In this document: positions 20,371-30,123 of the stretch, piece after piece
Numbering within the stretch: the stretch's first letter is position 1
How the letters are laid out: each line of letters opens with the position of its first letter
DNA from: an uncultured cyanobacterium
GTDB lineage: Bacteria > Cyanobacteriota > Cyanobacteriia > CACIAM-69d
Direction of reading: 5' to 3'
Assembly: GCA_937883785.1 (NCBI GenBank)
Contig: CALGDE010000024.1
Span: 1-50,011 of the forward strand
DNA length: 50,011 nt
The notes under the pieces: model-generated
Database searches by the model: none
What the model was told of the DNA's origin: nothing
What the model saw: only the letters and a program-made list of their open reading frames with translations
Program-made: the position numbers and the translations under genes

Positions 20371-21114
20371 ATGCAGCCTGATAAGTCAAACGGAAAAATC
20401 CTTATTGTTGATGATGAACCTGCTCTGCGCCTTATTTTGACAACGCGGCTCTCTTTGGCGGGCTATCAGGTTGTGACGGCTGCTGATGGGGAAGAAGCGT
20501 TAGAGGTTTTTGCTAAAGAGAATCCCGATCTAATCGTTTTGGACGTGATGATGCCGAAGATGGATGGCTATGGGGTTTGTCAGGCCCTGCGTCAAGAGTC
20601 CAATGTGCCCATTATTATGTTGACCGCTCTGGGGGATGTGGGCGATCGCATCACCGGACTTCAGCTGGGAGCCGATGATTACCTAGCTAAGCCGTTTTCG
20701 CCCAAAGAGTTGGAAGCGCGTATCGCCTGCGTACTGCGACGGGTGAAGGATCGACGCTCCAGTTCCGATTCTGACCGCACGGTGGTTCAGGTAGGCACTT
20801 TGCGCATTGATACTCGCAAGCGCCAAGTATTTCGCGAGGACCGCCGCATCCGTTTAACCCACACGGAATTTAGCTTGCTGGAGCTGTTGTTTAATCGCAA
20901 CGGTGAAGCAGTGCCCCGAGCCGAGATCTTGCAAACCCTGTGGGGGTATGCGCCGCGAGTTCAAGCAGATATGCGGGTGGTGGATGTGCATGTGGCACGG
21001 CTGCGGTCAAAGCTGGAAGATGATCCCCGCAATCCTGAGGTGATTCTGACGGTGCGCGGCACAGGCTATGCGGCTCCCCGCATGGGTGAAGCGGCTGATG
21101 CCATTGGTGCGTAA
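20371..21114 (+). CDS. rpaB: OmpR-family response regulator RpaB
   Basis: The 247-residue protein has a receiver domain with phospho-acceptor Asp58 (LIVLDVMMPKMDGYGVCQ), acidic pocket D14-D15 and conserved Lys near 107 (LAKPFSPKELEARI). A winged-helix DNA-binding domain follows (RLTHTEFSLLELLF ... DMRVVDVHVARLRSKLEDDP ... VRGTGY). The MMPKMDGYGVCQ and TALGDVGDRITGLQLGADDY blocks match cyanobacterial RpaB rather than RpaA. RpaB binds HLR1 elements, represses high-light genes and activates photosystem I genes under low light, usually downstream of the kinase NblS. NblS is not in this window, which is usual. It stands alone on the plus strand. Confidence 0.88.
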   Translation: MQPDKSNGKILIVDDEPALRLILTTRLSLAGYQVVTAADGEEALEVFAKENPDLIVLDVMMPKMDGYGVCQALRQESNVPIIMLTALGDVGDRITGLQLGADDYLAKPFSPKELEARIACVLRRVKDRRSSSDSDRTVVQVGTLRIDTRKRQVFREDRRIRLTHTEFSLLELLFNRNGEAVPRAEILQTLWGYAPRVQADMRVVDVHVARLRSKLEDDPRNPEVILTVRGTGYAAPRMGEAADAIGA

Positions 21115-21223
21115 AGCCATTGTTCCCAAGGGGTTATTGCTTAATAGCGACTTTAGTTTTAGCAAAGGTTGGATTTGAGGAGGCGCTTCAGATTCAACGC
21201 TGTTTCAGTTGTTTTAATAGAAT

Positions 21224-21251
21224 CGAGCATCCAACGTCGGATTGATGCTCG
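21224..21251 (+). terminator. Hairpin between rpaB and gor
   Basis: CGAGCATC (21224-21231) and GATGCTCG (21244-21251) are perfect 8-bp arms around 12 nt. An alternative inner pairing ATCC/GGAT exists. No T-run follows, so termination is only a guess. Confidence 0.35.
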
Positions 21252-21323
21252 TTAAGTCACTGGTCTCAGGATCCTTTTACCATTGAGGAAGCCGTTGCAT
21301 TTCTGCTTTGGAGGGATCGGTCC

Positions 21324-22706
21324 ATGGGAACGCGGTATGACTATGACTTGTTTGTGATTGGCGCGGGCTCTGGGGGACTGGCGGCGTCGAAGCGGGCGGC
21401 GAGCTATGGGGCAAAGGTGGCGATCGCCGAGGGAGATTCGGTGGGGGGCACCTGCGTCATCCGCGGCTGTGTGCCGAAAAAATTAATGGTGTACGCGTCC
21501 CAGTTTTCTCACTGGTATAGTGACGCGGTGGGCTATGGCTGGGACGCGGTGGATCCCCAGTTCCACTGGGACAAGCTACTGACGGCGGTGGGGAATGAGG
21601 TTGATCGCCTAAATCAAGTGCATATTGATTCGCTGGACGAAGCGGGGGTTGAGCTGATTCGCGGTTTTGCTCGTTTCGTGGATAGCCACAAGGTGAAAGT
21701 GGGGAATCGCACCGTTTCCGCCAAGACCATTTTGATTGCGGCGGGAGGAGAGGCCATTAAGCCGGATCGACCGGGGATGGAGCACGCCATTACGTCGCGG
21801 AATATGTTTTTGCTGACGGCGCTACCCCAGCAGCCTCAGCGGTTTCTAGTGATTGGGGGCGGTTATATTGGGGTGGAATTTGCGGGAATTATGAACGGGC
21901 TGGGATCGGAAGTGACCCAGATGGTGCGCAGCGACGGGATTTTGCAGGGGTTTGATCAGGATTTGCGCGATAGCGTCACGGTGGGTATGCGCAATCGAGG
22001 CGTCAAGTTGTTTACAAAAGTGGACGATAAAACGTTCGAAATTGAAAAAACCGATTCGGGGCTAAAAGTGTCCATTGCCTTGAAAAAAGGAGAAGACCCC
22101 CAAACCTTCACTTTTGACGCAATTTTGGCCGCCACCGGTCGTAATCCTAAGCCGGTGCTGGATTTGCTGGAGCTGGATAAGGCAGGGGTAGAAATTAAAG
22201 ACGATGGGGCGATCGCCGTTACGGAAGATAGCTGCACCAGTCAGCCTCACATTTATGCGGTGGGGGACTGTACCGACCGGGCAGCGTTAACTCCCGTAGC
22301 GATCGCCGAAGGTCGCGCTTTTGCGGACACGGTGTTTGGTCACAAGCCCAGCGCTGTTAGCCACCACAAAATTCCTACGGCGGTATTTTCCCAACCGGAA
22401 GCTGCCACCGTGGGAATGACGGAAGCAGAAGCGCAGGAGCATTATGGGGACGGGGTCAAAGTCTATCGGGCGCGGTTCCGACCCATGTTCTACAGCTTGC
22501 CGAAGGTGGACGAGAAGGTGATGGTGAAGCTGATTGTGGAAGGGGCTGACGAGCGCATTTTGGGAATGCATATGGTGGGCAAGGACGCGGCAGAAATCAT
22601 TCAAAGCTTTGCGCCGGTGCTGTTGATGAATGGCACCAAAGCAGATTTGGATCGCACCATGGCCCTGCACCCCTCTACGGCAGAGGAGTTTGTCACCTTG
22701 CGGTAA
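21324..22706 (+). CDS. gor: Glutathione reductase
   Basis: The 460-residue FAD/NADPH disulfide oxidoreductase regenerates reduced glutathione. The FAD motif VIGAGSGGLAASKRAASYG is at 11-29 and the redox-active disulfide Cys44/Cys49 in GGTCVIRGCVPKK. The NADPH-binding region has VIGGGYIGVEFAG near 178, the second FAD site has YAVGDCTDRAALTPVAI, and the C-terminal active-site base lies in ALHPSTAEEF. The GGTCVIRGCVPKKLMVY form is typical of glutathione reductase rather than dihydrolipoamide or mercuric reductase. ATG 21324 follows GGAGGGATCGGTCC, a strong Shine-Dalgarno. The 209-nt gap from rpaB holds a hairpin, so separate transcription is likely. Confidence 0.95.
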   Translation: MGTRYDYDLFVIGAGSGGLAASKRAASYGAKVAIAEGDSVGGTCVIRGCVPKKLMVYASQFSHWYSDAVGYGWDAVDPQFHWDKLLTAVGNEVDRLNQVHIDSLDEAGVELIRGFARFVDSHKVKVGNRTVSAKTILIAAGGEAIKPDRPGMEHAITSRNMFLLTALPQQPQRFLVIGGGYIGVEFAGIMNGLGSEVTQMVRSDGILQGFDQDLRDSVTVGMRNRGVKLFTKVDDKTFEIEKTDSGLKVSIALKKGEDPQTFTFDAILAATGRNPKPVLDLLELDKAGVEIKDDGAIAVTEDSCTSQPHIYAVGDCTDRAALTPVAIAEGRAFADTVFGHKPSAVSHHKIPTAVFSQPEAATVGMTEAEAQEHYGDGVKVYRARFRPMFYSLPKVDEKVMVKLIVEGADERILGMHMVGKDAAEIIQSFAPVLLMNGTKADLDRTMALHPSTAEEFVTLR

Positions 22707-22722
22707 ACGGGCATTGGGCCGA

Positions 22723-22748
22723 TTCGTGGCGCGAGTTCGTGGCGCGAG
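22723..22748 (+). repeat. 13-bp tandem duplication
   Basis: TTCGTGGCGCGAG occurs twice head to tail (22723-22735, 22736-22748), just after the gor stop codon. It is a perfect local duplication with no known role. Confidence 0.8.
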
Positions 22749-22858
22749 TTAGTAAGGCGAGCGCTGGGGCAAGAAGGCATAAAGTTTTAGGGGCACTTTA
22801 ATGGAGGCGTCGGGTCGTAGGTTAAGTTAGAACCGTTGGCGCTATTTCAAGAAATTCT

Positions 22859-23083
22859 ATGAGTCCCATTACGCGCTATGCCCTATTTGGCATCTTATTA
22901 ATCGTGATTGTGGCCACGTTGTATCAGTGCGCCACGTCGGGAGGCTGGGGCGGCGGCGGCGTTTACGTTAGACCAGGCTATCGGGGCGGTAGCTACAACA
23001 GTGCGCCGAGTCGGCGATCCACCGGAGGGAGCCGTTCTACCGGTGGCAGCTTTCGCGGCGGTGGCCCCGGCGGCGGTAAGTAA
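22859..23083 (+). CDS. Small Gly/Ser/Arg-rich membrane protein
   Basis: The 74-residue protein has one N-terminal hydrophobic helix (about 7-25, YALFGILLIVIVATLYQCA), then a tail of Gly, Ser and Arg (GGSRSTGGSFRGGGPGGGK) that is likely disordered and positively charged. Cys24 sits at the end of the helix but lacks a standard lipobox (Y-Q-C). It is the first gene of a same-strand set with a spermidine-synthase-like membrane protein, a DUF4178 protein and SpeD. Small secreted or membrane partners are common in such sets. Not recognised as a named family. After the stop codon, direct repeats of AAG(T/C)AGGCGGCG continue to the next gene. Confidence 0.7.
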   Translation: MSPITRYALFGILLIVIVATLYQCATSGGWGGGGVYVRPGYRGGSYNSAPSRRSTGGSRSTGGSFRGGGPGGGK

Positions 23084-23129
23084 GTAGGCGGCGGCAAGTA
23101 GGCGGCGTAGTTAAGCAGGCGGCGTAATA

Positions 23130-24764
23130 GTGGGTTTTCTTAACGTCGATAAGGGGCAAAATAAACCGTTGGAATCGTCCATTCCTCAGCCCTCCTCAGC
23201 GGAAAGGTTACCCCTCAACCGTCGTCAGCGCAGTGTGGTGCTATTGGCGGCGGCGGCGTCTTCAGCCTGTGGCTTGGCGGTGGAGCTGTTATTGGGCGGG
23301 CTTACCAGTTATCTGGTGGGGGATCACGCCCTGGCCTATGGTGTGGCGTTGGGGGGCTTTTTGGCGGCGATGGGCGTCGGCTCCTATTTAAGTCAGTTTG
23401 TGGCGGTTTCCTACAAGAATTCCAACAATCCAACAATTGCCCAGGATTTAATTCGCGCTTTTATTCAGGTTGAGCTGGCGATGGCTCCGGCGATCGCCCT
23501 CGTGCCTCTGGGATTATTTGCCCTGTTTGTGGCGGGTGGCTGGCTATGGCTTGGACTAGCCCTATCCACATTATTTTTAGGGATCTTGGCGGGGATGGAG
23601 GTGCCTCTGCTGACGCGGCTGCTGGAGCGGGATTCGTCGGTGAAGGAGGCTTTGGCGGGGGTGTTGGCGCTGGATTATGCGGGGGCGCTGGTGGGGGCGA
23701 TCGCGTTTCCGTTGGTGCTGTTGCCGTGGCTGGGAATGTTTCCGGCGGCGGCTTGCTTGGGGGCGGTGCCAGCGGTGATGGTGGTGGCGATCGCCCAAAG
23801 CTTTCGGCCGCTGCTGCCGGGGGCGAAACGCTGGCGTCAATTGGGGCTGGTGATGGCGATCGCCCTGCTAGTGCTGGCTCCCCTAACGGTGTCCCTGGGA
23901 AATACCTTGGAAAATCGGCTGTATAAAGCAGCGGTGATTTATCGCCAAACCACCCAGTATCAGCGTATTGTGCTTACCCAAAACGCCGGGGATACGCGGC
24001 TATTCTTAAACGGCGATTTGCAATTTTCCACCGCCGACGAATATCGCTACCACGAAGCCCTGACCTACCCGGTGCTTAGCGCGGCGGGATCATCGAAACG
24101 GGTCTTGCTGCTGGGGGCGGGGGATGGGCTTGCCCTGCGGGAGATACTGCGCTGGCCTGGGGTAGAGGCGGTGACGGTGTTAGAGCTGGACCCGGCGGTA
24201 GTGAACCTGGGGCGATCGCACCCGGCATTGGTAAAGGCCAACCGCCACGCCTTTGATGATCCCCGAGTGATGGTGCAGTTTGGCGACGCGTTCCAAGCGG
24301 TGCGAGATTTACCCAACTTTTTTGATGTCATTATCGCCGACTTTCCCGATCCGGACCGGGACGTGCTTGCCAAGCTATATTCCGACGGCTTTTATCGAAT
24401 GCTGCGATCGCACCTTAGCCCTGATGGCGCAATGGTTACCCAAGCATCCAGCCCCTACTTTGCGCCCAAAGCCTTTGCCAGCGTCGCCGAAACCCTGGCA
24501 GCCAGCGGATTTAATACCTATCCCTACCGCGTGGACGTGCCCAGCTTCGGTCCCTGGGGATTTGTGCTGGCAAGCAACGGCGAAATCAACCCCAGCCAGC
24601 TAGATATTGCCGTCGAGTCGCGGTTTCTCACCCCACAGCTGCTCCCAGCTCTATTTAGCTTGCCTAAGGATGAACAATGGGAGCCGGGCAGTGTGGAAAT
24701 CAATCGCCTAAGCCATCCGGTGTTGCCGAAGTATCAGCGCGATCGCCGTTGGCAATGGTATTAA
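23130..24764 (+). CDS. Membrane-anchored spermidine-synthase-like protein
   Basis: The 544-residue protein has an N-terminal half (about 30-265) with six to eight hydrophobic helices (for example VVLLAAAASSACGLAVELLLG and ALAGVLALDYAGALVGAIAFPLVLLPWLG). A C-terminal aminopropyltransferase fold follows: Y-R-Y-H-E near 308-312, the nucleotide-binding motif LLLGAGDGLALREILRW near 326, LELDPAVVNLGR, GDAFQAVRDL and IIADFPDPD. Soluble SpeE has only the last part. The enzyme would transfer aminopropyl groups from decarboxylated SAM, the SpeD product, at the membrane; the acceptor may not be putrescine. The start is GTG 23130, chosen because it is the first codon giving the full N-terminus. Grouped with DUF4178 and speD, which supports a shared pathway. 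Confidence 0.88.
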   Translation: MGFLNVDKGQNKPLESSIPQPSSAERLPLNRRQRSVVLLAAAASSACGLAVELLLGGLTSYLVGDHALAYGVALGGFLAAMGVGSYLSQFVAVSYKNSNNPTIAQDLIRAFIQVELAMAPAIALVPLGLFALFVAGGWLWLGLALSTLFLGILAGMEVPLLTRLLERDSSVKEALAGVLALDYAGALVGAIAFPLVLLPWLGMFPAAACLGAVPAVMVVAIAQSFRPLLPGAKRWRQLGLVMAIALLVLAPLTVSLGNTLENRLYKAAVIYRQTTQYQRIVLTQNAGDTRLFLNGDLQFSTADEYRYHEALTYPVLSAAGSSKRVLLLGAGDGLALREILRWPGVEAVTVLELDPAVVNLGRSHPALVKANRHAFDDPRVMVQFGDAFQAVRDLPNFFDVIIADFPDPDRDVLAKLYSDGFYRMLRSHLSPDGAMVTQASSPYFAPKAFASVAETLAASGFNTYPYRVDVPSFGPWGFVLASNGEINPSQLDIAVESRFLTPQLLPALFSLPKDEQWEPGSVEINRLSHPVLPKYQRDRRWQWY

Positions 24765-24913
24765 CGACGGTTAATTCTGCACTGAAATGCGCATCGCCCC
24801 TAATTCAAAGGGATATATTTAAACTGCGCAACATCAAAGATATAACGTCGATACAAGGTTAAAAGTATAGGCGTGCGATTAAATTTATTACCTAATAAAC
24901 GGGGGAAATACTG

Positions 24914-25516
24914 ATGGAATGGATTATTGTTATTGCCGTTGCTGCGGTGGCTGCGGTAGCAATTATTGCCCTGTTGGGTAATCAAAATAAGTCTTCGGGA
25001 TCAGCCTCAGGAGATGGCGATCGCCGTCAATATCCCCCCGATTCCACGGCGATTTTATTTGATCTACGCATCGGCGATATTGTGCAGTATTTCGATGAAG
25101 ACTGGATTGTTGAAGGGAAAATGACCTACAACGATGACGGCTTTGTGTGGATGGAATATTTGCTGCAATTGGGGAGTCGCACCCAATGGTTATCGGTGGA
25201 AGAGGATGACTATTTAGAAACCTGTATGCTCGACCCGGTGAAAGATTTAGACATTAGCGGCGAGCCCCCCGAACAGTTAACTTACCAGGGGAACGAGTAT
25301 CGTTTAGAGGAAGCTAGCGAAGCCAATATGACCCGCCTCACCTCCACAGGGCAGCGCACCTCAGAGAAGTGTAAATATTACGATTATGAAGGGACTGACG
25401 GGTTGGTTTTGTCCATTGAAGATTGGGGAGGGCAGCGAGAAATCAGTGCTGGCAAGTCGGTGCCGCCGCGATCGCTAACGGTGCTTCCTGGCGACGGTCA
25501 AAGTGTTTATCGATAG
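24914..25516 (+). CDS. DUF4178 protein with N-terminal membrane helix
   Basis: The 200-residue protein starts with an Ala/Val/Ile-rich helix (about 2-22) and a short polar linker, so it is membrane-tethered with the bulk on one side. The rest fits DUF4178: LRIGDIVQYFDEDWIVEGKMTYNDDGFVWMEYLLQL, then TQWLSVEEDD and the second half LTYQGNEYRLEEASEA...KCKYYDYEG...LSIEDWGG. DUF4178 is a beta-rich domain of unknown biochemical role. From family knowledge it recurs next to SpeE/SpeD-like and DUF350/DUF4247 genes, in contexts tied to membrane stress. The stop lies 17 nt before speD, so the two are probably co-transcribed. Confidence 0.85.
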   Translation: MEWIIVIAVAAVAAVAIIALLGNQNKSSGSASGDGDRRQYPPDSTAILFDLRIGDIVQYFDEDWIVEGKMTYNDDGFVWMEYLLQLGSRTQWLSVEEDDYLETCMLDPVKDLDISGEPPEQLTYQGNEYRLEEASEANMTRLTSTGQRTSEKCKYYDYEGTDGLVLSIEDWGGQREISAGKSVPPRSLTVLPGDGQSVYR

Positions 25517-25533
25517 GGCACCAACCACCCCTA

Positions 25534-25968
25534 ATGACTAATTTTGATAAACCATTAATCCCCTGCGAAACTGATAGCAACACGGCAAGTCATTGGTTGG
25601 TGGATTGTTACGGCTGTCGGGGCGATCGCCTCACTAACGCTGACCAATTGGAGCAGCTTTTAATTGCGGCGGCGGATCGGGGGAATTTATCCGTATTGCG
25701 TTCCCAAAGTCATCAGTTTCACCCCCACGGAGCCACGGTGTTGCTGTTACTTAGCGAGTCCCATTTATCGCTGCATACTTGGCCTGAGAAAGGCTACGCA
25801 GCGCTGGATTTGTTCACCTGTGGCGATCGCTCCAACCCCGCAGCGGCGTACCAAACGGTGCTGAATTTTCTCTGTCCCAGCCACCATCAGGTACAAAAAA
25901 TCAACCGCTCAATGACGCCTCCATCTTTGTCACCATTAAAACCTGTTGCAAAAAATCGGTACAGTTAA
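25534..25968 (+). CDS. speD: S-adenosylmethionine decarboxylase proenzyme (SpeD)
   Basis: The 144-residue proenzyme makes decarboxylated SAM, the aminopropyl donor for polyamines. The self-cleavage motif is LLSESHLSLHTWPEKGYAALD, where Ser76 of E-S-H becomes the pyruvoyl group. His81 and the conserved Cys96 (LFTCGD) needed for processing and catalysis are present. The N-terminal HWLVDCYGC block is normal for the short bacterial class (1b). ATG 25534 is chosen over upstream in-frame codons because it starts at the family's usual N-terminus and keeps the 17-nt gap to the DUF4178 gene. The C-terminal tail (SLSPLKPVAKNRYS) is slightly long. It forms the substrate-supply end of the polyamine module. 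Confidence 0.93.
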   Translation: MTNFDKPLIPCETDSNTASHWLVDCYGCRGDRLTNADQLEQLLIAAADRGNLSVLRSQSHQFHPHGATVLLLLSESHLSLHTWPEKGYAALDLFTCGDRSNPAAAYQTVLNFLCPSHHQVQKINRSMTPPSLSPLKPVAKNRYS

Positions 25969-26099
25969 CAAACTGGTATAACTGAAAGTAGGTTTTATTA
26001 CTACAAGCTGCCATTGCAAGGGAATTACGGCGAAGCAAGCTTTGGTTAAATAAAGCCTTTGACGCACTAAAGATTTTTTTGAAACGGTGTCTTGAGCCT

Positions 26100-27875
26100 A
26101 TGGTTTTCTCTCAAAACACTTCAGCAATTCCATTAGGAACTGTAATCCAAGGCTCCTTAAGTGAAGGGCTGGAAGTGCGTCTAAACGGAGATGTTTCCGT
26201 TGAAACCATGCGAGTGGGAAAGTTTTTGGTGGTGCGCGGTCGCCAAACCCACTTTTTCTGTATGTTGACGGACGTGGCTTTAGGCACCGCTAGCGGTCGA
26301 ATTGCTGTGGATCCGCCCGACCCAAATGATGATTTTATGCGGGAAATTTTGGCGGGCAGCAGCACCTATGGCACCATCGATTTAACGCCGATGCTGATGT
26401 ATTTGCCCGAGTCAGAGGAGAGGGATTTTAGTCAGAATTTCCAAAATAATTCCCAACGGAAAAAATCTGAGAAGAATGGCAACGGAAAGAACGGCAGTGG
26501 CAACGGTTTAGGGTCTTTTGAAGCTAATACCAACGCCACTGTTCAGCTTTTACCGGTAAAAACAATTCCCAGTCATTTTTCCCAGGTGTATGACGCCAGC
26601 GAACGGGATTTCCGCATCGTTTTTGGGTGGGAAGATGACCCGTTTCGGAAGAATTTTGCGATCGGCATGCCCATCGATATGGATGTGCCGGTGTGTTTGG
26701 ATCTAGAGCGATTTGTGGAGCGCAGCAACGGAGTTTTTGGAAAGTCGGGCACGGGAAAGTCGTTTTTGACGCGGCTGCTGTTGGCGGGGGTGATTCGCAA
26801 GCAGGTGGCGGTGAATTTGATTTTTGATATGCACTCGGAGTACGGCTGGGAAGCTATGACCGAGGGCAAAAGCGTTAATACGGTGAAGGGTTTGCGACAG
26901 CTATTTCCCCGATCCGTACAGATTTATACGCTAGATTCGGCATCCACAAAGCGGCGGGGGGTGCGCGATGCCCAGGACCTTTATATTAGCTACGACCAAA
27001 TTGATGTGGAGGATTTAACGTTAGTTAGTTCAGAGCTAAATCTATCAGAAGCGAGCCTGGAAAACGCCATTATTTTGCGCAATGAATTTGGTAAGTCTTG
27101 GATTTCTCGGCTGTTGACAATGACCAATGAGGAAATCCAAGACTTTTGTGAAATGAAAATGGGGAGCAAGCCTTCTATTATGGCTTTGCAGCGAAAGCTA
27201 ACCCGTTTGGATGAAATTGGCTATATTCGCAATGCCTCCCCCCACAATTATATTGCCCAAATTCAGGAGGATTTGGAGGCAGGTCGCCACGTGATTATTG
27301 AGTTTGGATCTCAGTCCAATATGTTGGCGTATATGTTGGCGACCAATATTATTTCCCGGCGCATTCACAGCACCTACGTGCGTAAAGCGGAGAAGTTTTT
27401 GCAAACGAAAAATCCCAATGATAAGCCTCGTCAGCTGATGATTGTGATTGAGGAGGCCCACCGATTTTTGGACCCTCACACGGCGAAGCAAACGATTTTT
27501 GGGGTGATTGCGCGGGAGATGCGCAAGTATTTTGTGACGTTGCTGGTGGTGGATCAGCGTCCGTCGGGTATTGATAACGAGGTGATGTCCCAGGTGGGTA
27601 CGCGCATTACGGCGCTATTAAACGACGATAAGGATATTGACGCGATTTTTACTGGGGTGTCTGGCGGGCAAAGTTTACGGTCCGTGTTGGCAAAGTTAGA
27701 TTCCAAGCAGCAGGCACTGGTGCTGGGGCACGCGGTGCCGATGCCGGTGGTGGTGCGTACTCGACCCTATGACGAAGAGTTTTACGCAGAAATCGGCGAC
27801 GTGAATTGGCAGGACATGCCCGATGAGGTGTTGATCCCCAAGGCGGAGGCAGCCAAAGCAGATCTGGGATTTTAA
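26100..27875 (+). CDS. HerA-like ATPase (DUF87 family)
   Basis: The 591-residue protein starts with a HAS-barrel-like N-terminus (about 1-110, GTVIQGSLSEGLEVRLNGDVSVETMRVGKFLVV). A P-loop ATPase core follows, with Walker A GKSGTGKSF at about 214-222, Walker B LMIVIEEAHRF near 447 with the Glu-Glu-Ala-His signature, and an arginine-bearing VTLLVVDQRPSGID strand. This is the FtsK/HerA superfamily, expected to form a hexameric DNA pump. No NurA nuclease gene is beside it. A polar Asn/Lys/Gly-rich linker (about 118-145) separates barrel and motor. ATG 26100 is preferred over TTG 26079. It lies 131 nt after speD; a functional link is not shown. Its stop codon overlaps the convergent gene by 4 nt. 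Confidence 0.88.
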   Translation: MVFSQNTSAIPLGTVIQGSLSEGLEVRLNGDVSVETMRVGKFLVVRGRQTHFFCMLTDVALGTASGRIAVDPPDPNDDFMREILAGSSTYGTIDLTPMLMYLPESEERDFSQNFQNNSQRKKSEKNGNGKNGSGNGLGSFEANTNATVQLLPVKTIPSHFSQVYDASERDFRIVFGWEDDPFRKNFAIGMPIDMDVPVCLDLERFVERSNGVFGKSGTGKSFLTRLLLAGVIRKQVAVNLIFDMHSEYGWEAMTEGKSVNTVKGLRQLFPRSVQIYTLDSASTKRRGVRDAQDLYISYDQIDVEDLTLVSSELNLSEASLENAIILRNEFGKSWISRLLTMTNEEIQDFCEMKMGSKPSIMALQRKLTRLDEIGYIRNASPHNYIAQIQEDLEAGRHVIIEFGSQSNMLAYMLATNIISRRIHSTYVRKAEKFLQTKNPNDKPRQLMIVIEEAHRFLDPHTAKQTIFGVIAREMRKYFVTLLVVDQRPSGIDNEVMSQVGTRITALLNDDKDIDAIFTGVSGGQSLRSVLAKLDSKQQALVLGHAVPMPVVVRTRPYDEEFYAEIGDVNWQDMPDEVLIPKAEAAKADLGF

Positions 27876-28366
27876 GGGGTGGTAGATTCGCTAGGCTGCA
27901 TATAAATGCGGCGCTGATCGGGGGCTAGGCGGATGGTTTCTTGGCGGGCGATCGCCTCAGCTTCTCTGGGATCAAAATACCGGCGAAATTCTTGCTGTAA
28001 ATTTTGCACTCGCGCTTCAACGGCGTAGGACTCTGCCTGGATTTGCTGTAATCCCGTGTGGCGATTAAGGGTGTGGGGCACTAGTTTGACCAACCCAATA
28101 ATTGCCGCAGCGCCGAGAATACCGTTCACTCCTAACTTGACGCTGAGTTCAAGGGTTTGAGCTACGACGGCTCGGTTTAAGGTTGTCTTAGTTTTGGGCT
28201 TTTGCTGGGATTTACGCCGATGTTGGGGCGATCGCCCCAGCCTGTCATCACCGTTCCCACCTACACTCCGACGCTTTTGGCTTGTGTTTTGTGGAGAATA
28301 CGAACCGCGTTGCCTTCTGCGGCGGGGGGAATTGGGATCTGGTGGGCGAAACTGAGGCGAAACCAT
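27872..28366 (-). CDS. Small single-TM protein with coiled-coil
   Basis: The 164-residue protein has a very basic, Arg/Ser/Gln-rich N-terminal region (about 1-65, probably disordered) and a hydrophobic segment at about 75-95 (VKLGVNGILGAAAIIGLVKLV). After it comes a short coiled coil (LQQIQAESYAVEARVQNLQQEFRRYFDP) and a conserved-looking end REAEAIARQETIRLAPDQRRIYMQP. The layout (cytoplasmic tail, one helix, then coiled coil) resembles FtsB/FtsL/DivIC cell-division proteins, and proteins with this C-terminus occur across cyanobacteria. I do not claim orthology. Convergent with the HerA-like gene. Confidence 0.75.
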   Translation of the reverse strand: MVSPQFRPPDPNSPRRRRQRGSYSPQNTSQKRRSVGGNGDDRLGRSPQHRRKSQQKPKTKTTLNRAVVAQTLELSVKLGVNGILGAAAIIGLVKLVPHTLNRHTGLQQIQAESYAVEARVQNLQQEFRRYFDPREAEAIARQETIRLAPDQRRIYMQPSESTTP

Positions 28367-28860
28367 AAATGGAAAGCGAGAGAAGTTATGCTGCGATATG
28401 CCCCAATAGCAACGCTAAAGGCTGCTATAAAACTGTGGAATTTACCCACAAAGGTGGAAAATTTCTGGCGGCTCGTTCAGAAATATCATCGTGAAGCCTG
28501 ATGATACTGAATATGCCTTCCACAGAGTTGTAGCAAATTCAGAACAAACGGCCAACTAATTTGCTGAAAATATCTGCTGTCTCAAGAAAATACAACGCCC
28601 TAGTTCTTTCGTTAGCTTTTTTTGAATCATTTTTGTTCAAAAAATCAGCCCCATTTCACTAAAGAAAAAGGGCTGACTTGCCGAACCACTTGCCAATTCT
28701 TCGCTTTATTCTCAAATGGCGCTGAATTTCTACGCGAATCGAAGACTGAAGGTGACAATCTTCCTAATACCTTCTGGGGGGCGCGACATTATTGGCTGTG
28801 CGAAAGAGCCAGGAAAATAGTCCACATCACGCTTAATGCCGTATCGATACCCGTGTAGGA
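28367..28860. other. Intergenic region downstream of psaM
   Basis: The space between the coiled-coil gene and psaM. Short plus-strand frames (for example 28622-28858 and ATG 28388-28501) show no family features. The region holds a candidate psaM terminator (28639-28676). An inverted repeat AAATAGTCC (28815-28823) / GGACTATTT (28858-28866) overlaps the psaM stop codon, and a 10-bp palindrome GTATCGATAC lies near 28841. Confidence 0.5.
28639..28676 (-). terminator. Candidate intrinsic terminator for psaM
   Basis: Arms TCAGCCC (28645-28651) and GGGCTGA (28670-28676) are perfect over 7 bp. On the minus strand the hairpin is followed by a run of six T (plus-strand A at 28639-28644), the form of an intrinsic terminator. 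It lies about 180 nt downstream of the psaM stop in the direction of transcription. Confidence 0.6.
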
Positions 28861-28956
28861 CTATTTATATAGGGCTTTGGATAGGCGAAGAGCCATTACA
28901 GCGGGAATCAACGCAACCACAAGGGCAACTAGAACTTGAGTATCTGAAATTTCCAT
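28861..28956 (-). CDS. psaM: Photosystem I subunit XII (PsaM)
   Basis: The 31-residue peptide is a single membrane helix: it starts MEISDTQVLVALVVALIPAV and ends LRLSKALYK. Length and the pattern S/T-D-T-Q-x...ALVxALxPAxxAxRLSxxLYK agree with PsaM, the small PSI subunit that helps trimer formation and carotenoid/chlorophyll binding at the monomer edge. ATG 28956 follows AGGAG with a 6-nt spacer, an excellent ribosome site. Promoter-proximal HLR1-like octamers lie about 90 nt upstream (29044-29061), suggesting RpaB control as for other PSI genes. A candidate terminator lies downstream. It stands alone on the minus strand, divergent from the TerC gene. Confidence 0.95.
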   Translation of the reverse strand: MEISDTQVLVALVVALIPAVMALRLSKALYK

Positions 28957-29043
28957 GGGAGCTCCTGTAAAGTTTCTGGCGGCAACTTTGCCACAATAAC
29001 TCCCTCCACTTTGTTCCGTTGCGGCTGTTTGTGAAATAGAGTT

Positions 29044-29061
29044 GTTACAAGGCGTAACAGA
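29044..29061 (+). promoter_or_regulatory. Candidate HLR1-like element upstream of psaM
   Basis: GTTACAAG, then GC, then GTAACAGA: two octamers with 7 and 6 matches to (G/T)TTACA(T/A)(T/A), 2 nt apart. The second is part of a near-palindrome GTAACAGAG-TAAT-CTCTGTAAC (29054-29075). It lies about 90 nt before psaM and 165 nt before the TerC gene, so it could serve either. Confidence 0.4.
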
Positions 29062-29223
29062 GTAATCTCTGTAACAATATCAAAGGGCTATTTGGCGCCA
29101 TTGAATCCTAGTGTCTGATAATAATTCTGGGAGTAGCGAATTAAGGCTGCTTATGCTTTGTCGCTCCTGCTATTTTTTCTGCCATTTTTATCGCTTTTAT
29201 TTCTTCGCTCTTAGGGGGCATTG

Positions 29224-30123
29224 ATGCTAGACCAGTTCCTCGATTTTTCTCCCAGCTTTGGGGTGGATACTTTCTTCCTGCTGGTAGTTTTGGTGGTGCT
29301 GGAGGCGGTGCTGTCGGCGGATAATGCCATTGCTCTGGCGGCGATCGCCCAGGGTCTGGAAGATCCTAAGGTGCAGCGGCGGGCGTTGGATTTGGGCTTG
29401 GTGGTGGCGTTTACCTTGCGGGTGGCGCTGATTTTATTGGCTACCTGGATTATCCACTTTTGGCAATTTGAGCTGGTGGGGGCGGCGTATCTACTGTGGC
29501 TGGTGTTTCGTTACTTTACCAGCGGAGAAGATGGGGAAAGTGGCAGCAGCTTTAACTTTCAAGGGCTGTGGCAGGCGGTACCGACGATCGCCTTTACGGA
29601 CCTGGCGTTTTCCCTGGATAGCGTGACTACGGCGATCGCTATTTCGGACCAAACCTGGTTGGTGTTAACCGGCGGCACCATTGGGGTCATTACCCTGCGA
29701 TTTATGGCGGAGTTGTTTATTCGCTGGCTAGAGGAGTTTACCTACCTGGAAACGGCGGGATATTTAACGGTGGCGCTGGTGGGAATTCGTTTGACTTTGC
29801 GGGCGACGGGAGAGGCGCTGGATGTGGGGCTGTGGGTGCCGCCCGATTGGTTGATGATTACGTTTATTGCGGCGGTGTTTTCTTGGGGGTTTTCTAAGCG
29901 CAACCCTGACTTTGTGGCCGATGGGGGCAGCGGTGACGGGGCGATCGCTGCCAATTCAAACAGTTCGCTCGATAGCGACGCCGACGGTGTAAATGACGAA
30001 CACAGCGCCAAGAATAACAATGGTATTAAGGGCGCGACCGATGCTTATGAAACCGTAGCTGAGGCCGCTGCCGACACCGCCGCTGACGTGGGCGAAACTG
30101 CTGAGGTAGAAACTAGCGAGTAG
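29224..30123 (+). CDS. TerC-family integral membrane protein
   Basis: The 299-residue protein has about seven membrane helices. The signature LEAVLSADNAIALAAIAQGL (about 23-42) and FTDLAFSLDSVTTAIAISDQ (about 120-140) carry the conserved Asp-containing motifs of TerC/YkoY proteins. These are linked to metal-ion (mainly Mn2+) export and to thylakoid membrane assembly in plants and cyanobacteria. A C-terminal tail of about 70 residues (from about 230) is acidic and Ala-rich (DSDADGVNDE...VAEAAADTAADVGETAEVETSE), longer than usual. ATG 29224 follows AGGGGG at about 8 nt; TTG 29221 is not needed. Divergent from psaM. Confidence 0.9.
   Translation: MLDQFLDFSPSFGVDTFFLLVVLVVLEAVLSADNAIALAAIAQGLEDPKVQRRALDLGLVVAFTLRVALILLATWIIHFWQFELVGAAYLLWLVFRYFTSGEDGESGSSFNFQGLWQAVPTIAFTDLAFSLDSVTTAIAISDQTWLVLTGGTIGVITLRFMAELFIRWLEEFTYLETAGYLTVALVGIRLTLRATGEALDVGLWVPPDWLMITFIAAVFSWGFSKRNPDFVADGGSGDGAIAANSNSSLDSDADGVNDEHSAKNNNGIKGATDAYETVAEAAADTAADVGETAEVETSE

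Follow-up and report, generated by a model that had tools for sequence, protein, structure and literature searches.

Bioinformatic analysis of a 50,011-nucleotide contig (CALGDE010000024.1) of an uncultured cyanobacterium (assembly GCA_937883785.1) suggests that four genes at positions 22859–25968 are a compact, self-sufficient form of a widespread membrane aminopropyltransferase module. The window (i.e. the whole contig) belongs to a 4.84 Mb genome closely related to Ca. Paraprochloron terpiosi and to a further uncultured cyanobacterium. The four genes encode, in this order on the + strand, a small membrane-anchored tail protein, a polyamine aminopropyltransferase with a transmembrane (TM) domain (TM-SpeE), a DUF4178 protein and the S-adenosylmethionine (SAM) decarboxylase SpeD. 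The acceptor of TM-SpeE would most likely be the C-terminal Lys of the tail protein, a reading to which we give, as a whole, somewhat less than an even chance.

Four same-strand genes had been described here in an earlier note made from the sequence alone, and they are supported by open reading frames (ORFs) on the + strand and by family scores above the cut-offs for TM-SpeE, DUF4178 and SpeD. The TM-SpeE gene (23130–24764, GTG start) encodes a 544 aa membrane-domain polyamine aminopropyltransferase of the PRK03612 type that matches NF002956 with 551.8 bits (cut-off 472; profile positions 6–519 of 522) and PF01564 with 108.5 bits. The DUF4178 gene (24914–25516) encodes 200 aa and matches PF13785 with 131.3 bits (cut-off 25). 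SpeD (25534–25968) has 144 aa from its ATG; a longer form from an alternative TTG start at 25423, listed by the ORF finder, is unlikely. Some SpeD homologues have been neofunctionalized to amino acids other than SAM. The SpeD of the window scores 118.9 bits against TIGR03330 (cut-off 75.65), also matches PF02675 and keeps an intact processing/active-site motif in a motif alignment (i.e. ES(HLSLHTWPE)...C); score and motif together assign it, as a prediction from sequence, to the TIGR03330 class of SAM decarboxylases. The intergenic gaps are 46, 149 and 17 bp, in gene order.

We then compared the distribution of these genes among 244 Cyanobacteriota genomes. TM-SpeE passes its cut-off in 20 of them and one further TM-SpeE is split, which brings the number to 21. 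In the genome with the split gene (G063; L038, 4365–7330), TM-SpeE is broken by a 390 aa ORF resembling an IS200/IS605-type TnpB, and the DUF4178 and tail genes are kept. DUF4178 is present in 19 of the 21 TM-SpeE genomes versus 7 of the other 223 (Fisher p ∼1e-20, a test that counts genomes as independent though they are phylogenetically related). This co-occurrence, and recurrence of the gene order in two relatives (L004 and L005), support the proposal that the four genes belong to a single module. Its distribution in its own family is patchy, because SpeE, SpeD and DUF4178 are all absent from three same-family genomes. Among viral contigs, DUF4178 was not found and there is one additional full-length TM-SpeE.

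Conservation of the whole gene set, which the earlier note had proposed as a check, holds in part: the neighbours are kept together in relatives, but the exact four-gene order is confined to the Paraprochloron lineage, i.e. the complete genome of Ca. Paraprochloron terpiosi (L005), L004 (where the small protein is cut by the contig edge) and, for the last three genes, L006. SpeD mostly lies away from TM-SpeE in other genomes. A larger operon, as in L056, contains CesT/Tir, PspA, DUF4178, DUF350, an unassigned membrane protein, the small tail protein and TM-SpeE, with SpeD in some cases; it is of the type published by Ravi et al. 2024. Neighbours of the PspA, DUF350 and CesT/Tir types occur in L049, L056, L100 and Bacillota. 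The published core is PspA-DUF4178-DUF350-tail protein-TM-SpeE, not the four-gene order. None of CesT/Tir, PspA and DUF350 was detected among the genes scanned at 20371–30123 of the window. A single run on a Novosphingobium plasmid (L061, 2568–9417) comprises SPFH, two DUF4178 proteins, a 48 aa Lys-ending peptide, DUF350, TM-SpeE, an FAD-dependent oxidoreductase and SpeD.

The evidence that carries the acceptor proposal concerns the small protein. Its gene (22859–23083, + strand) encodes 74 aa rich in Gly, Arg and Ser with an N-terminal hydrophobic segment; Pfam returns no match for it, DUF4247 (PF14042) included, and its homologues adjoin TM-SpeE or DUF4178 in many genomes. It closes with the tail RGGGPGGGK (23054–23080), an ending common to homologues in Cyanobacteriota, Bacillota and Alphaproteobacteria, and the final Lys is the proposed acceptor. 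In the neighbourhoods of DUF4178 and TM-SpeE, which define the scope of the tail search, a Gly-rich GK ending occurs in 14 of 2946 small ORFs (30 neighbourhoods), all of which are the small membrane protein of the DUF4178/TM-SpeE clusters. Nearly all tail proteins have the common pattern ...GGG-x(n)-GK, and the outliers are also Lys-terminated. Because our first tail table was selected by the GK motif, it is biased for the last two residues, and tails chosen by position served as the control. Bacillota DUF4247 proteins (148–196 aa) occupy the tail-gene position beside TM-SpeE, and those picked by position rather than motif all end in GK (e.g. RGGGPGEGK, RGGGIFGGK and RGGGFGFGK). Divergent tails picked in the same way keep the terminal Lys (i.e. 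FRHGK in Gemmatirosa, VYHK in G038, PSHK in Novosphingobium and NRVK in Tritonibacter), against a background frequency of C-terminal Lys of 7.6%. An Ensifer plasmid encodes the tail LGGGPESGK directly 5' of TM-SpeE, and a Clostridia genome fuses DUF4178, a TM segment and a tail ending in SGGGTSSGK in a single protein.

The tail follows TM-SpeE rather than DUF4178. Among Bacillota genomes with DUF4178, a GK tail is present in 11 of 11 with TM-SpeE versus 0 of 9 without (Fisher 6e-6, genomes again taken as independent). In Cyanobacteriota the corresponding figures are 19 of 21 genomes with TM-SpeE versus one of seven with DUF4178 only, the G038 tail not being counted. DUF4247-type proteins from operons without TM-SpeE end in RRR (Pfam-checked in L159; a look-alike in L160). 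Conservation of the C-terminal Gly-Lys in different phyla, and its tracking of TM-SpeE, make the tail the strongest candidate for a partner or substrate. The earlier note had proposed the Gly/Arg tail in this role; the candidate stands, but the telling feature is the C-terminal Lys, not the Gly/Arg richness. The small protein of the window belongs to a broad class of tail proteins that are exported, tethered to the membrane and encoded next to TM-SpeE, and the Lys-ending tail is apparently new to the literature. In four other genomes (L043–L046; G032, G010, G004 and G018), DUF4178, a GK-tail protein and a half-length DUF350 lie next to a large peptidase of the S49 family (checked with Pfam in L043), with TM-SpeE located elsewhere in the genome in G032, G004 and G018.

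Membrane topology was assessed from hydropathy, AlphaFold2, positive-inside counts and conservation. The membrane domain of TM-SpeE (aa 31–264; 23220–23921, + strand) has seven helices, both in hydropathy over 28 homologues and in the AlphaFold2 model, with embedded acidic residues E52, E115, E157 and D182, of which E52, E157 and D182 are invariant across TM-SpeE. In 27 homologues, 305 Lys and Arg residues fall on the N-terminal side (i.e. the N-terminus and loops 2–3, 4–5 and 6–7) versus 4 in loops 1–2, 3–4 and 5–6; these last loops are short, hence residue density counts besides number. This bias, together with seven helices, places the N-terminus inside and therefore the SpeE domain outside. 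The SpeE domain is thus predicted to be extracytoplasmic, with moderate confidence in the helices. Since tail proteins either resemble signal-anchored proteins or are lipoproteins (clear lipoboxes in two Bacillota proteins, L154 and L155), the tail would lie on the same side as the SpeE domain.

The catalytic SpeE domain (aa 268–482; 23931–24575, + strand) is well predicted by AlphaFold2 and matches solved aminopropyltransferases (Foldseek against 1uir, E 2.6e-17). Residues Q298, Y307, D332, D354, D386, D404, D407 and Q438 are invariant, and the positions that bind decarboxylated SAM (dcSAM) or take part in catalysis, roles that we presume from established knowledge of SpeE, are unchanged in 39 of 39 TM-SpeE proteins. 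Two other positions, which we take to line the diamine side in solved SpeE structures, differ from those of canonical bacterial soluble enzymes: Ser/Thr replaces Glu/Asp at 440 and Phe replaces Tyr at 473. The earlier view that TM-SpeE differs from ordinary soluble synthases is supported. A PSFG motif was considered as a mark unique to TM-SpeE and rejected, as the soluble crenarchaeal SpeE 7xif has PSFG too.

A mechanism in several steps would account most simply for these observations. SpeD would produce dcSAM, and TM-SpeE, anchored by its seven helices, would move the aminopropyl group from dcSAM to a membrane-associated acceptor, most likely the C-terminal Lys of the tail protein, which is tethered and encoded immediately 5' of TM-SpeE. 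The outcome would be a polycationic tail on the outer face of the membrane, with DUF4178 as a possible accessory or sensing partner. For the donor to meet an active site outside, dcSAM might pass via the membrane domain; alternatively, the topology might be wrong or the tail might be modified before export. A wider claim, that membrane aminopropyltransferases of several phyla aminopropylate the C-terminal Lys of exported tails at an extracytoplasmic active site, with dcSAM fed through the seven-TM domain, is possible but rather doubtful. The tail as acceptor, passage of dcSAM to the outside (or modification of the tail before export) and any envelope-stress role are inferences.

Several points weigh against modification of the tail. 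The main difficulty is that an extracytoplasmic SpeE domain requires dcSAM outside the cytoplasm, and we know of no dcSAM transporter. The active site is compatible with a small amine acceptor, and a diamine may exist in the source genome (G000), because SpeA and a member of the AAT-fold decarboxylase family (PF01276) are present there. Three TM-SpeE loci (L062, L064 and L101) have no recognized tail gene in their vicinity; conversely, G010, a metagenome-assembled genome that is 91% complete, has a tail, but no TM-SpeE was found in it. The significance of the Fisher tests is overstated because they take genomes as independent. Finally, ordinary spermidine synthesis by TM-SpeE is a serious rival.

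According to that rival, TM-SpeE is the cells' ordinary membrane-anchored synthase of spermidine (or another triamine); the operon would supply free polyamine, with the tail protein and DUF4178 as membrane partners or regulators. SpeD, DUF4178 and a SpeE-domain protein each occur once in the source genome, the SpeE-domain protein being TM-SpeE; TM-SpeE is also the sole SpeE in Ca. Paraprochloron terpiosi (G244, with one SpeD) and in G245, and no other aminopropyltransferase is present in these three module genomes, a point that speaks for the tail reading as well. The intact catalytic residues, the adjacent SpeD, SpeA in G000, the PF01276 decarboxylase in all genomes tested and the NCBI family name (polyamine aminopropyltransferase) all suit such a role. 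However, a second, soluble SpeE accompanies TM-SpeE in several genomes (e.g. G002, G027, G204, G156 and G118), the canonical diamine-pocket positions are altered, the catalytic domain is predicted to lie outside, and the strict link to a Lys-ending tail is left unexplained. In addition, the complete Ca. Paraprochloron terpiosi genome retains the module without SpeA. We had considered absence of a diamine supply as proof of an acceptor other than putrescine and dropped it, as the PF01276 decarboxylase is present in that genome despite the missing SpeA. Taken together, we regard ordinary synthesis as somewhat unlikely.

Alternatively, the module could serve in envelope stress: TM-SpeE would make a polyamine at the outer face of the membrane, and an unmodified Lys-ending tail would bind or sense the product or the membrane charge. 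The predicted extracytoplasmic SpeE domain, the PspA, DUF350 and CesT/Tir-type neighbours described above and the operons with the same three families in Ravi et al. 2024 (mSystems, PMC11237479) argue for it. It gives no reason, however, for a terminal Lys across otherwise dissimilar tails, and none of the three families lies beside the module in the window; we consider it unlikely. That a membrane lipid (e.g. an amine headgroup) accepts the aminopropyl group, as the earlier note had also allowed, would suit the membrane anchoring and changed diamine-side residues of TM-SpeE, but is very improbable, as no evidence points to a lipid, no conserved lipid-linked gene stood out in the neighbourhoods inspected and the Lys-ending tail is the more specific partner.

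The DUF4178 protein is predicted to be membrane-anchored by an N-terminal TM helix (aa 2–24), with its beta-rich domain in the cytoplasm. Its AlphaFold2 model (pLDDT 78) has no significant match in the PDB, and DUF4178 has no invariant Lys. Assignment to the fold of EF-P domain I (Z 5.6) or eIF5A (Z 4.2) was rejected, the best VIA rows being below the noise level of the tool; that both are proteins carrying lysine modifications is a curiosity only. A different DUF4178 neighbourhood occurs in six loci (L047, L048, L050, L051, L054 and L057, from the cyanobacterial genomes G075, G022, G071, G190, G194 and G057, respectively), with a SpeE-like protein that lacks the catalytic Asp and Gln positions, a truncated SpeD-like gene nearby in five of the six and no GK tail. 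A FemAB-family protein and DUF350 also belong to this neighbourhood (both confirmed with Pfam in L047, and FemAB in L057 too). The SpeE-like proteins were tried as TM-SpeE variants and rejected; they represent another architecture, because in the two examined with Pfam the SpeE domain is N-terminal. The neighbourhood is possibly a separate membrane system. In the window, a TerC-family membrane protein (29221–30123) lies ∼3 kb 3' of the module, beyond a HerA-like ATPase (26079–27875).

Compared with soluble SpeE (e.g. 1uir and 6qmm), TM-SpeE shares the catalytic fold and the dcSAM/catalytic residues, whereas a seven-TM domain replaces the N-terminal part. The small protein of the window resembles DUF4247 proteins of Bacillota in its ...RGGG...GK tail and its position beside TM-SpeE, but has only a membrane anchor and the tail, without the DUF4247 domain. 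Ravi et al. 2024 (PMC11237479) describe operons of PspA-CesT/Tir-DUF350-DUF4178-TM-SpeE, count seven TM helices in TM-SpeE and raise aminopropylation of other substrates. Those operons and the window both join a seven-TM SpeE and DUF4178 in one operon, where the two are adjacent in the window; by contrast, the window operon lacks PspA, CesT/Tir and DUF350 but includes SpeD. The TM-SpeE-DUF4178 operon type is thus already known, and the set in the window is a compact variant of it. The accessible text of that paper does not describe a Lys-ending tail or the topology argument, and what is new relative to the published type is the compact variant and, apparently, a Lys-ending tail through which the question of the acceptor can be put to the test. 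DUF4178, DUF4247, DUF350 and TM-SpeE are widespread families without settled function, and a Lys-ending tail that tracks TM-SpeE sharpens a vague link between polyamines and membrane stress into a cheap mass-spectrometry question.

If the tail is indeed modified, this would be a protein modification akin to hypusine but outside translation. Our literature search found no report of protein aminopropylation, a negative that carries little weight. The likeness to hypusine and EF-P lysine modification is conceptual (i.e. a protein lysine bearing a group derived from a polyamine or an amino acid), as enzyme, donor and target are all different. A closer works-like parallel may be found in Escherichia coli, where the lipoproteins YgiB and YjfM, with GG at their C-termini, adjoin YgiC and YjfC, annotated as peptide-spermidine ligases, an activity reported by Pederick 2023 as cited in PMC12568646. 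The GG tails may be the ligase substrates. In YgiBC and YjfIJKLMC (DUF1190 lipoprotein plus ligase), as in the module, a polyamine-type enzyme neighbours an exported protein with a C-terminal tail (Gly-ending in E. coli), and the yjf operon also contains PspA and DUF350. The chemistry differs: the E. coli enzyme is an ATP-grasp ligase that couples spermidine to peptides, beside tails ending in GG, whereas the module has an aminopropyltransferase and tails ending in GK, and no ATP-grasp glutathionylspermidine-synthetase-like ligase was found among the window neighbours at 20371–28366. Tail modification by TM-SpeE, if it occurs, and the E. coli ligases would be two different chemistries for capping an exported tail with a polycation.

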